22,052 bases of DNA from a virus: IMG/VR virus record IMGVR_UViG_3300025828_000221, positions 1 through 22,052 of that record. One strand, 5' to 3'. Numbering within the stretch: position 1 is the first letter of the stretch; the number at the start of each line of letters is the position of its first letter. The translations under genes and the position numbers were made by a program. Below are positions 17,864 through 21,187 of this stretch, piece after piece. The notes beneath the pieces are model-generated. The model was not told the DNA's origin. It worked only from the letters and a program-made list of their open reading frames with translations, and searched no databases.

Positions 17864-18781
17864 ATGGCTATTTCAAGAGCACAACTAGCTAAAGAGCTAG
17901 AGCCGGGTCTGAACTCGCTTTTCGGCATGAGTTACGACTCATATGACCGCGAGTATGAAGAAATCTTTGCCATCGAAGACTCACAGCGAGCCTTTGAAGA
18001 AGAGGTTTTGATCACTGGTTTCGGTGGAGCACCGACCAAAACTGAAGGCCAAGGCGTACAATTCGACAACGCTTCTGAGTCTTATACCGCTCGCTACACG
18101 CACGACACCGTTGCGTTGGCTTTCGCTTTGACCGACGAAGCCGTAGAGGACAACCTTTACGACTCACTGGGCAAGCGATATGTGAAGGCTTTGGCCCGAT
18201 CTATGGCTAACACCAAGGAAGTAAAAGGCGCTGACGTATTGAACAATGCGTTTGATACCAACTTCACTGGCGGTGACGGCGTAACATTGATCAACACGGC
18301 ACACCCTCTAGCGGGTGGCGGCACTGCTGCAAACCGTGCGACATCGATGGCCGACTTGAACGAAACGTCTTTGGAAGATGCGTTGATTGATATCAGCACA
18401 TTCACCGATGACAAGGGTCTAACGATCTCTGTTCAAGCCACGAAGCTGGTTGTTCCACCTCAGTTGACGTTTGTTGCTGACCGCATCCTAAGCTCTACGC
18501 TTCGTAGCGGCACGGCTGACAACGACATCAACGCAATTCGCAACACGGGTGTATTGCCCGGTGGCTACACGGTCAATCACTACCTGACTGACCCTGATGC
18601 CTTCTTCCTGCTGACTAGCGTCACCGACGCTGGTGAAGGCTTGAAGATGTTCCAGCGTACTGCGATGGAAACCACGATGGAGCCAGACTTTACGACTGGC
18701 AACATCCGTTACAAGGCTCGTGAGCGTTACAGCTTCGGCTTTAGTGACTGGCGCGGCATCTACGGCTCACAAGGCGCGTAG
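17864..18781 (+). CDS. Major capsid protein (probable, HK97-fold), 305 aa
   Basis: Likely builds the icosahedral shell. Support: 305 residues with the usual arrangement of an N-terminal helical arm (SRAQLAKELEPGLNSLFGMS), a glycine-rich FGGAPTKTEGQGVQFDNASE loop, a long core helix (GKRYVKALARSMANTKEVKG), and the block NTAHPLAGGGTAANRAT, which I recall from Mu gpT-like major head proteins. Adjacent scaffold, decoration and GroES-like genes agree. GGGAG seven bases before the ATG gives a strong start, as expected for an abundant protein. The gene is followed by a strong terminator at 18796-18821. Confidence 0.88.
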   Translation: MAISRAQLAKELEPGLNSLFGMSYDSYDREYEEIFAIEDSQRAFEEEVLITGFGGAPTKTEGQGVQFDNASESYTARYTHDTVALAFALTDEAVEDNLYDSLGKRYVKALARSMANTKEVKGADVLNNAFDTNFTGGDGVTLINTAHPLAGGGTAANRATSMADLNETSLEDALIDISTFTDDKGLTISVQATKLVVPPQLTFVADRILSSTLRSGTADNDINAIRNTGVLPGGYTVNHYLTDPDAFFLLTSVTDAGEGLKMFQRTAMETTMEPDFTTGNIRYKARERYSFGFSDWRGIYGSQGA

Positions 18782-18823: not shown

Positions 18824-18837
18824 GCCGCTTATGCGGC
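18824..18837 (-). other. Stop-codon hairpin at the end of the first reverse gene
   Basis: On the minus strand GCCGC-ATAA-GCGGC is a perfect 5-bp hairpin whose loop contains the TAA stop of the gene ending at 18829. A matching arrangement occurs at 19695-19710. Confidence 0.6.
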
Positions 18838-19680
18838 CTCCTCTAGTATTTCTGCCTTGGTGGGGCGTTTGAAAAACCCAAACTTGGCGTCTTTGTCTGA
18901 CGCTGTGACTGTGGCGGTGAACGTGATACGGCTCTCGCGCTCCGCATCATCAAGGCTCTTGGGAGCTGAACCCCAAACCCGAAACCCTCGATCATCCTGT
19001 ACTAACATCTTGAGCACGTCACCGAAATGCGATGACTGCCATTTGAACGCCAGCACGGTGCCAGTGATAACAATGCGTCCCTCTGGCGCATCCTCTCCAG
19101 CTTCATGGGCGGCGTCACGCTTTTCGCGCTCAGACTCCTGCTGCTCCTGAGCATACTTCTGCAACCTGACCAGATCACCGATCAGCTTTTCGCGGATTGC
19201 TTCACAGATGTCTTCGGGGCATTTAGAGATGGTCAGGAAGCGCATTGGCTTGCCCTGTAATCCATATCGGCCCTTGTCATTGAACTCCCTAGACTGATGA
19301 ATGCAGACGATCTGACGGGTCGCCGCTGGCAACTCCTGCCACTGCGACATGAACTTGTCGGCGCGATCAACAGGCACTTTGAACTCGGTTTTACCCGTGA
19401 ATCCGCCTCTGGTGATGCTTTCGCGCTCTTTTGGAAACGGTAGATACTGACCCGCGAGATATTCGCCTTCAAACTCACTGTCACCCTCGCACCAGTTCCA
19501 GACGTAGCCGTCGCAAGGCGCGTGTAACCGACCAGACTTTTCCGAGTAAACAGGCTCCAAATCCTCGTTGTACTCCGCCGCCATACGCTTGATGCGAGCG
19601 TCATAAGCCTTCACGCCGCGCTGACGCGCCAGCTCGTACTCGTCAATGCGATTTTCCAACCAGTTCCAAAAATTACCCAT
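18829..19680 (-). CDS. Protein with C-terminal OB-fold-like domain, 283 aa
   Basis: The N-terminal half is helical with aromatic-rich segments (CDGYVWNWCEGDSEFEGEYL); a coiled linker (YAQEQQESEREKRDAAHEAG) leads to a C-terminal beta domain, about residues 200-280: GRIVITGTVLAFKWQSSHFG, then KMLVQDDRGFRVWGSAP and ITFTATVTASDKDAKFGFFK. I recall this 'RGFRVWG ... FTATV ... FGFFKRP' pattern from uncharacterised phage and actinobacterial proteins; it looks like an OB fold, so nucleic-acid binding is plausible but unproven. ATG 19680 has AAGGAG and an in-frame GTG directly before it. Second gene of a leftward two-gene cassette set between capsid and other virion genes. Confidence 0.75.
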   Translation of the reverse strand: MGNFWNWLENRIDEYELARQRGVKAYDARIKRMAAEYNEDLEPVYSEKSGRLHAPCDGYVWNWCEGDSEFEGEYLAGQYLPFPKERESITRGGFTGKTEFKVPVDRADKFMSQWQELPAATRQIVCIHQSREFNDKGRYGLQGKPMRFLTISKCPEDICEAIREKLIGDLVRLQKYAQEQQESEREKRDAAHEAGEDAPEGRIVITGTVLAFKWQSSHFGDVLKMLVQDDRGFRVWGSAPKSLDDAERESRITFTATVTASDKDAKFGFFKRPTKAEILEEAA

Positions 19681-19694
19681 CACTTTCTCCTTCG

Positions 19695-19710
19695 GGCGGC
19701 TTACGCCGCC
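19695..19710 (-). other. Stop-codon hairpin between the two reverse genes
   Basis: On the minus strand GGCGGC-GTAA-GCCGCC forms a 6-bp stem; the loop holds the TAA stop of the gene ending at 19701. The Shine-Dalgarno of the next gene begins a few bases later. It has no T run, so it is not a normal terminator. Confidence 0.6.
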
Positions 19711-20045
19711 TTGTTTAAGTTGACTGTCTCGAAGCCGCAATTTGCGACCAAGTAAAACTGACCGTCCATTTCCAGCACGTCACCAACCGACACGCTGCTC
19801 ATTTGCGCGTGTTTTTTAACTAGCTCTGGCTTTTCCCAAAGGTTTGTCAGTCGAAAAACTTCGCCCAAGTCCGTAGCATCTACCGTGGCAACATGGTTAT
19901 AAGCGTGGAACCATTGAGTCAGGTCAATTTTGCCCATGCCTTTGTCTGCGAAAGCCATAGTTTTTCCTGAAGCGCCCCATCCCTCTTTGTTCAAAAGATC
20001 GATGTCTTCTTGCGTGAGGTGAAACTGGTAGATTTTTACTGTCAT
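19701..20045 (-). CDS. Hypothetical protein, 114 aa
   Basis: No family recognised. The sequence combines helices (LTQEDIDLLNKEGWGASGKT) with beta segments (HAYNHVATVDATDLGEVFRL and VGDVLEMDGQFYLVANCGFE), so a compact alpha/beta fold is likely; the QFYLVANCGFE end recalls small accessory proteins encoded near YodL/antirestriction-type genes, but I do not claim that family. Three tandem ATGs are present (20051, 20048, 20045); the last is chosen because GGAGA then lies seven bases upstream. First gene of the reverse cassette, driven by the promoter at 20072-20099. It ends in Lys-Ala-Ala with the stop in a hairpin loop. Confidence 0.7.
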   Translation of the reverse strand: MTVKIYQFHLTQEDIDLLNKEGWGASGKTMAFADKGMGKIDLTQWFHAYNHVATVDATDLGEVFRLTNLWEKPELVKKHAQMSSVSVGDVLEMDGQFYLVANCGFETVNLNKAA

Positions 20046-20071
20046 CATCATTCTCCGTTGTTATGGCCCTA

Positions 20072-20099: not shown

Positions 20100-20150
20100 C
20101 TATGTATACACACAAAAGTGCAAATAATTGAACTTTTTTTTGGCGGGTCG

Positions 20151-20178
20151 TTGGCATACACTGAGGATCTGAGATAAA
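20151..20178 (+). promoter_or_regulatory. Weak candidate rightward promoter
   Basis: TTGGCA (20151-20156), 16 bases, GATAAA (20173-20178) would place transcription start just before the structured leader. Hexamers are imperfect. A rightward promoter is expected here, because the capsid operon terminates upstream and the next genes face the same way. Confidence 0.35.
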
Positions 20179-20182
20179 TCAA

Positions 20183-20243
20183 GCCCCAGCGACTGGCTCA
20201 GCAGACGTTACGAAGACTCTGGGGCGAATCCTTTCGTAAGAGG
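20183..20243 (+). ncRNA. Structured 5' leader, possible H-type pseudoknot over the RBS
   Basis: GCCCCAG (20183-20189) pairs perfectly with CTGGGGC (20219-20225). The loop contains TTACGAA (20208-20214), which pairs perfectly with TTCGTAA (20233-20239) downstream, giving an H-type pseudoknot with loops of 18, 4 and 7 bases. An exclusive alternative is a local hairpin CCTTT/AGAGG (20230-20234 with 20239-20243, one G-U) that buries the Shine-Dalgarno AGAGG of the gene at 20251. The two states compete for the same bases, as in a switch. No known riboswitch class is recognised. Confidence 0.5.
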
Positions 20244-20250
20244 TAATACC

Positions 20251-20760
20251 ATGTCACAGATAACAATGTCAGGCCCAGTCAGATCGCTGGGCGGCTTCAT
20301 AACCGCAGGCGTAAACAGCAGCGTCAGTCTGTCCGCAGACACCACGCTGACCGTGGCTGCTCATGCTGGCAAGATCATTCTGCTGAATGACGCAGACGGC
20401 AAGTTTACTTTGCCATCAATTGTTTCCACCACCCCTACAGATCCTACGTCCCCTGATCAAGCTAATAATGTAGGCGCGTCTTTCTTTTTCTACATTGAAA
20501 CCGCAGCCACTGACTTGGACATCCTTACCGATGGCACTGACAAGTTCAAAGGTGCAGCGATCGTTGCTGTCGATGACGGCGTAGAGAAAGCTTTCTTCCC
20601 AGCCGCAGCAAATGACGTGATGACTTTCAACGGCTCAACCAAAGGCGGTTTGGTCGGCAGCGTCATTCAAGTAACAGCAATTGATACAGCCAGCTACCTC
20701 GTACATAACACCTTGCTGCTTGGTTCAGGAACGATTGTTACGCCTTTCGCTGACGCTTAA
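20251..20760 (+). CDS. Probable virion structural protein, 169 aa
   Basis: Beta-rich and Ala/Thr/Asp-rich, with no membrane segments: SLSADTTLTVAAHAGKIILL, DADGKFTLP and TDLDILTDGTDKFKGAAIVA. This looks like a small virion decoration protein; proteins of this style, with 'TLTVAAHAGKIILLNDADGKFTLPS' organisation, occur next to capsid genes of marine phages. The exact role is unknown. Shine-Dalgarno AGAGG is seven bases before ATG 20251 and lies in the structured leader. A strong, regulated 5' end suggests an abundant protein with controlled synthesis. Confidence 0.75.
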   Translation: MSQITMSGPVRSLGGFITAGVNSSVSLSADTTLTVAAHAGKIILLNDADGKFTLPSIVSTTPTDPTSPDQANNVGASFFFYIETAATDLDILTDGTDKFKGAAIVAVDDGVEKAFFPAAANDVMTFNGSTKGGLVGSVIQVTAIDTASYLVHNTLLLGSGTIVTPFADA

Positions 20761-20782: not shown

Positions 20783-21187
20783 ATGGCAGATGCAGTAACA
20801 AGCCAAACCATTCAGGACGGCGAGCGCAAAGCCGTCCTCAAATTCACCAATATCAGCGATGGTACGGGTGAGACTGCTGTCACTAAGATTGACGTAAGCG
20901 CGTTGACTACGAACAGCGCAGGAAAGGCTTGCACAGAAGTAGCTGTCGCCAAGATTTGGTGGCAGTGCGTCGGCATGGGCGTTGAGTTGCTCAACGACGC
21001 CACGGCTGACACGTTGATCATTGGCCTTTCGCCTGACTCAAATGGCTTTCACGATTACTCTGATTTTTCTGGCATCCCCAATAATGCGGGTGACGGGAAG
21101 ACGGGTGACGTGAAGTTCACGACGATTGGCGCAAGTAGCAGCGACACCTATACTGTGATTGTTGAAGTGTTGAAGACTTACGGCTAA
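20783..21187 (+). CDS. Virion structural protein, 134 aa (marine phage type)
   Basis: The start MADAVTSQTIQDGERKAVLK, the KFTNISDGTGETAVTKIDVS block and AVAKIWWQCVGMGVELL are similar to a small structural protein that I recall from numerous cyanophages and other marine phages, always near head or neck genes. Function is not established. It has AGGAGATAGGCA before ATG 20783 and overlaps the next start by TAATG. No unusual features. Confidence 0.78.
   Translation: MADAVTSQTIQDGERKAVLKFTNISDGTGETAVTKIDVSALTTNSAGKACTEVAVAKIWWQCVGMGVELLNDATADTLIIGLSPDSNGFHDYSDFSGIPNNAGDGKTGDVKFTTIGASSSDTYTVIVEVLKTYG

Follow-up and report, generated by a model that had tools for sequence, protein, structure and literature searches.

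A leader RNA with four interlocked helices precedes a capsid cement-type gene in HTVC023P-type phages

Judged by comparison of natural variants, the leader in front of the gene at position 20251 is a real structured RNA, in which four interlocked helices have been kept by evolution while nearly every paired letter has changed. The leader lies in a 22,052-nt stretch of viral DNA (IMG/VR record IMGVR_UViG_3300025828_000221; hereafter the window), and the gene that follows it on the plus strand (20251-20760) encodes a 169-amino acid protein that fold prediction and gene order suggest is of the capsid cement or spike type. We propose, with a probability of about one half, that this RNA acts in cis: it would make up nearly the whole 5' UTR of this gene and control the initiation of its translation. 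With the comparison, what had been a guess by eye becomes a structured RNA with strong support in HTVC023P-type phages, and structural work gains a natural three-pseudoknot fold of compact size.

Architecture of the leader

The element reaches from a probable promoter up to the Shine-Dalgarno (SD) sequence of the cement-type gene, and its helices are all read on the plus strand. The 5' strand of helix P1 (CTGAG, 20169-20173) pairs with CTCAG at 20197-20201, which lies inside the loop of P2, a 3-bp hairpin formed by CTG (20193-20195) and CAG (20202-20204). Helix P3 joins GCCCCAG (20183-20189) to CTGGGGC (20219-20225) in 7 bp. Helix P4 joins TTACGAA (20208-20214) to TTCGTAA (20233-20239), also in 7 bp, and reading of the sequence allows an extension by one pair, G20215-U20232, to strands of 20208-20215 and 20232-20239. 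The strands follow one another in the order P1, P3, P2, P1', P2', P4, P3', P4'; P1 crosses both P3 and P2, and P3 crosses P4, which makes three chained pseudoknots. A conserved AAGAC/GAGAC segment (20214-20218) precedes the 3' strand of P3, and the SD sequence GAGG (20240-20243) directly adjoins P4.

The initial annotation of this DNA had described P3 and P4 as the two stems of an H-type pseudoknot. Both stems are exact and real, but P1 and P2 had been overlooked, and the fold is a chain of three pseudoknots instead of a single H-type one. Taken by themselves, the two stems could have arisen by chance. No other pair of 7-bp stems on this strand of the window makes an H-type pseudoknot within 62 nt, and at least one such pseudoknot occurred in 40 of 100 dinucleotide-shuffled windows, which rules out any claim of significance from two stems only. 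We count the observation as real because of the compensatory changes in relatives presented below, which also back the earlier proposal of a pseudoknotted RNA beside the ribosome binding site (RBS) of a virion-structural gene.

An Rfam 15 scan of the window returned no family match at threshold, in agreement with the initial view that no known class fits, and families considered at permissive thresholds gave chance-level matches only. The minimum free energy of 20150-20300 was unexceptional (z -1.0) in nested single-sequence folding, which misses pseudoknots. Pairing between leader and coding sequence, taken from the minimum free energy fold, was strong in the window only and lacking in relatives, and its conservation was rejected. 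An HDV-like ribozyme, suggested by GGCGAAU before P4, was also rejected: such a ribozyme has its helices in a different order, and other clades lack the motif.

SAM-II and preQ1 riboswitches are compact pseudoknots adjoining the RBS, with layouts broadly similar to that of the window leader. A metabolite-sensing riboswitch whose compact, pseudoknotted aptamer gates the RBS would fit the compact pseudoknot, the conserved unpaired bases and the position of the SD at the 3' edge. We nevertheless consider it improbable. The scan for SAM-II, preQ1 and other Rfam riboswitches, the first two of which had been brought up at the outset, found none, and in the loci examined the leader always precedes one type of virion gene and never a metabolic gene. 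The gene context of the window leader is virion assembly, unlike that of SAM-II and preQ1.

Compensatory changes among relatives

Relatives of the 169-amino acid gene were confirmed in at least 596 stretches of IMG/VR. Among sequenced phage genomes there were two, those of the pelagiphages HTVC023P and HTVC027P, and further queries yielded more distant relatives. HTVC023P-type phages have been counted among the most abundant pelagiphages (PMC9599517). The leaders that we compared were the sequences 5' of each start codon of these gene relatives. In a strict parse, which required perfect helices and permitted G-U pairs, all four helices formed in 101 of 128 distinct leaders. The other 27 include compact leaders resembling those of the Rfam family Mu-gpT-DE (RF03012) as well as leaders that contain a bulge or mismatch, and several of this second kind were recovered by R1, a covariance model of P3 and P2 only, built from 28 leaders. 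R1 also recovers leaders outside its training set, exactly at the gene start, and 13 phage records each had one strong match to it. The four-helix score of the window leader was reached by none of 300 shuffles; over 24 leaders with 300 shuffles apiece, one shuffle of one leader reached the real score, and the other 23 leaders had no such case.

Because the strict parse selects for pairing, the main evidence was taken from fixed registers. In 32 window-type leaders (set A4), 98.9% of cells were paired in the fixed register, compared with 34-50% in slid registers. Double changes occurred in 13 of 23 pairs (0/500 shuffles), and the covariation score was 0.309, against 0.145 after shuffling. The 25 HTVC027P-type leaders (set A2) gave 99.3% paired cells and double changes in 12 of 23 pairs (0/500 shuffles). 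For the cross-clade set (A1) the values were 87.4% and 15 of 23, with losses chiefly in P4, whose register MAFFT fails to hold.

Both sides of P3 changed in 6 of 7 pairs in A4 and in 9 of 9 in A2. P1 covaries as CTGAG/CTCAG, CTGGG/CCCAG, CTAGG/CCTAG, CCTAG/CTAGG, CCAAG/CTTGG, CCGGG/CCCGG, ACTATAC/GTATAGT and CTCAAC/GTTGAG, and P2 as CTG/CAG, CCG/CGG, CCA/TGG and CAG/CTG. P4 is near-constant inside clades, and its support comes mainly from differences between them: it is invariant in the window clade save for the coordinated changes TTTACGAA/TTCGTAAA and CTTACAAG/TTTGTAAG, and other clades carry GTATAG/CTATAC, CCTAG/CTAGG, ACATGC/GCATGT, CATATA/TATATG, TTGTAG/CTACAA or TAGTAG/CTACTA. As an unbiased check, a pattern search that left P1 and P3 out of account yielded 68 distinct elements; an exact P1 partner lay upstream in 66 of them, and six P3 pairs were present in a fixed register in 54.

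Among cells without a Watson-Crick pair, G-U far outnumbered A-C (47 and 23 against 4 and 0, with 32 of the 47 belonging to one invariant pair), as expected of RNA transcribed from this strand. This excess and the crossing topology disfavour an inverted repeat acting at the DNA level.

Conservation extends to unpaired positions. The dinucleotide (G/A)A, GA or AA, lies just 5' of P2 in 101/101 parsed leaders, a conserved AC follows within 2 nt of the P2 3' strand in 100/101, and RAGAY stands directly before the P3 3' strand in 97/101. In 100 of the 101, the leftmost SD-like match starts between -4 and +1, counted from the base that follows P4. In several clades P4 takes SD bases into its own pairing; in the clade of the window the SD stays free of it.

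These data bear on the switch that the initial annotation had suggested, an ON state in which the pseudoknot prevents a hairpin from burying AGAGG. The alternative hairpin between CCTTT (20230-20234) and AGAGG (20239-20243) is possible, one G-U pair included. An SD-covering hairpin of at least 5 bp is present in 29/29 window-clade leaders, and the variant L245 (AAAAGG) swaps the hairpin's G-U for A-U. However, the window clade shows too little sequence variation to give the hairpin much covariation support. Elsewhere it recurs in L226, which is closely related to the window clade, and in only 2 of 71 leaders of the remaining clades. We rejected the hairpin as a general feature because of this clade restriction. 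In several clades P4 itself engages SD bases, which argues in the opposite direction, and an ON switch of this kind is very improbable.

The cement-type gene and a proposed role in its translation

The 169-amino acid protein had no Pfam or PHROG match. Its AlphaFold2 model (pLDDT 88) is predicted to be beta-rich, and the sole significant PDB match was the capsid spike of Pseudomonas phage Pa223 (E 2e-5, TM 0.47). In relatives, the gene comes after the capsid gene, and a cement protein is annotated at the same slot in phage DSL-LC04, on a different body type. The element precedes at least four body families that are unrelated by BLASTP and share a short N-terminus like MA-x-T-x-F-x-G-P; some searches selected for this motif, whereas the pattern-found loci did not. 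An N-terminus of about MANTTFSGPVRSxNGF is kept and the rest replaced (window 20251-20300; L213, L219, L227, L319, L334, L335 and L432), and the leader together with this segment resembles a cassette accepting swapped decoration proteins.

A -10-like box, TACACT (20157-20162, plus strand), is weak in the window, with a 4/6 match. Among 96 leaders, 69 carry at least a 5/6 match to TATAAT 2-14 nt upstream of P1, with a peak at 6-9 nt, compared with 2 of 96 for an equal interval farther upstream. A -10 box 6-9 nt before P1 in most leaders suggests that a promoter is present and that the message starts at or just before P1. In the leaders L017, L021, L041 and L042, TATAAT lies between P1 and P3, right after a terminator-like hairpin; P1 is kept there by compensating changes though the box sits downstream of it, and the use of the start site in these leaders is puzzling.

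The structure and place of the leader are established by sequence comparison, and it is its function that we infer. If the leader controls translation, transcription would start at or just before P1, and the message would begin with the knot. With P4 closed, the knot would block or trap the 30S subunit, and a bound factor might stabilise or release the knot and so match cement output to capsid output. Since the same leader stands before unrelated bodies that share only the short N-terminus, the cement body is a less likely candidate for such a factor than the capsid protein, a host factor or the docking segment at the N-terminus, and autoregulation through the body is weakened by the occurrence of the leader in front of at least four BLASTP-unrelated families. 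Several observations weigh against an operator: the SD is left free of P4 in the window clade, so that only steric blocking could operate there; the window has a weak -10 box, and L017-type leaders have none upstream of P1; and constitutive roles account for the same conservation.

The constitutive role that we weighed is that of a 5'-end stabiliser or translation enhancer, in which a knot at the mRNA 5' end shields the message from 5'-end-dependent decay, leaves the SD free and gives steady, high cement output with no sensing. The promoter-to-P1 spacing places the 5' end at P1, the SD is free and adjoins P4 in the window clade, and the leader is independent of the protein body. High output would also be in keeping with cement proteins that equal the capsid protein in number, as in phage GP4 (540:540; PMC9698820). 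Against this, simple hairpins already stabilise 5' ends, and conserved unpaired segments with three chained pseudoknots seem excessive; moreover, P4 pairs SD bases in several clades. A stabiliser or enhancer is the strongest alternative, possible but on the unlikely side, and we favour a translational control element over it.

Translational control by a pseudoknot has precedents. Like the window leader, the T4 gene 32 operator is a pseudoknot in the 5' region of a phage mRNA, upstream of the RBS, and it serves autogenous translational repression (PMC535899, PMC3014915). Unlike the window leader, with its three chained pseudoknots touching the SD of the cement gene, the T4 element is a single short H-type pseudoknot about 67 nt before the start codon and is bound by a single-stranded DNA-binding protein. 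According to a 2010 review, it may be the sole viral case of a pseudoknot in translational autoregulation (PMC3014915). The operators of the E. coli alpha operon (uS4) and rpsO (uS15) are also pseudoknots that embrace or touch the RBS, and they work by entrapment (PMC10931766), but the genes that they control encode ribosomal proteins. The Alpha_RBS model matched one relative leader only, at chance level. Whether cement output is tuned to capsid output by RNA is a question that is testable in cultured isolates.

Relation to Mu-gpT-DE RNA and genomic occurrence

Upstream of the element in the window is a gpT-like major capsid protein gene (17864-18781, plus strand; PF25209 and PF10124, Mu-like gpT). 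A capsid homologue lies upstream of the element on the same strand at 164/164 loci with at least 1.5 kb of upstream sequence. Two minus-strand genes (18829-20051) separate the capsid gene from the element in the window; the spacing between capsid and cement genes in other phages is about 0.1-1.8 kb.

Mu-gpT-DE RNA occupies the same genomic position, with a gpT-like capsid gene on one side and genes of the same downstream families on the other, and it likewise has a hairpin within an outer helix. The window has no match to RF03012 at its cut-off of 49 bits, and none at E<=10 was found for 20100-20300. At cut-off RF03012 misses every triple-pseudoknot leader, and R1 does not find the RF03012 leaders. 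The outer helix of RF03012 is 4 bp long and pairs the SD itself (CCUG/CAGG), whereas the outer helix of the window leader, P3, is upstream of the SD and P4 adjoins it; the Rfam structure has neither P1 nor P4. A published reanalysis places Mu-gpT-DE among the families whose database structures have no covarying pairs (PMC7657543).

A conserved GACA...GCCAMGA segment is common to Mu-gpT-DE and to intermediate leaders such as L219 (R1 E 1.4e-8). RF03012 matches compact leaders in the same slot, namely L213, L230 and those of the Roseobacter phages CRP-901 and CRP-902. The cement protein of CRP-901 (RF03012, 72 bits) is 72% identical to that of DSL-LC04, whose leader is of the triple-pseudoknot type (CTAGG/CCTAG, CTG/CAG, CTCGTATCT/AGATACGAG, TAGTAG/CTACTA; R1 E 1.3e-4), and the two RNA forms therefore replace each other at one locus. 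Shared segments, GACATGCCAAGAC in L219 compared with GACAcUAGCCAcGAC in the RF03012 consensus, suggest that the forms are of common descent. The Rfam orphan Mu-gpT-DE is thereby linked to a precise place, the 5' UTR of a capsid-cement gene.

RF03012 is typed 'Gene; sRNA', and its name refers to a location downstream of gpT, which would make the element an independent small RNA or part of the 3' UTR of the capsid gene. We regard this as highly unlikely, given that the RF03012 model itself stops at the start codon (AUG) of the gene that follows, that the abutment to the SD is kept, and that the element stays with the cement gene despite the two intervening minus-strand genes in the window. A more far-reaching proposal, which we hold to be doubtful and put forward tentatively, is an undescribed class of phage translational operators in which three chained pseudoknots, placed at the 5' end of the message, would sense capsid assembly through the shared cement N-terminus or the capsid protein, proportion cement and capsid, and exchange evolutionarily with Mu-gpT-DE. 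If this were true, Mu-gpT-DE RNA would gain a function.

The gene after the cement gene (20783-21187; ADAVTSQTIQDGERKAVLKF...) had no Pfam or PHROG match and holds the same place in the distant relatives L248 and L246. An ORF at 1640-2431 of the window resembles, by eye, a serine recombinase/resolvase. Occurrence of the element in host chromosomes was checked in three binned genomes. A binned Maricaulis genome (the L288 record, with G013 contigs C6, C58 and C146, which are L431, L432 and L433) holds four versions of the element, each on its own contig, before different decoration bodies, and these probably represent several phages binned together.
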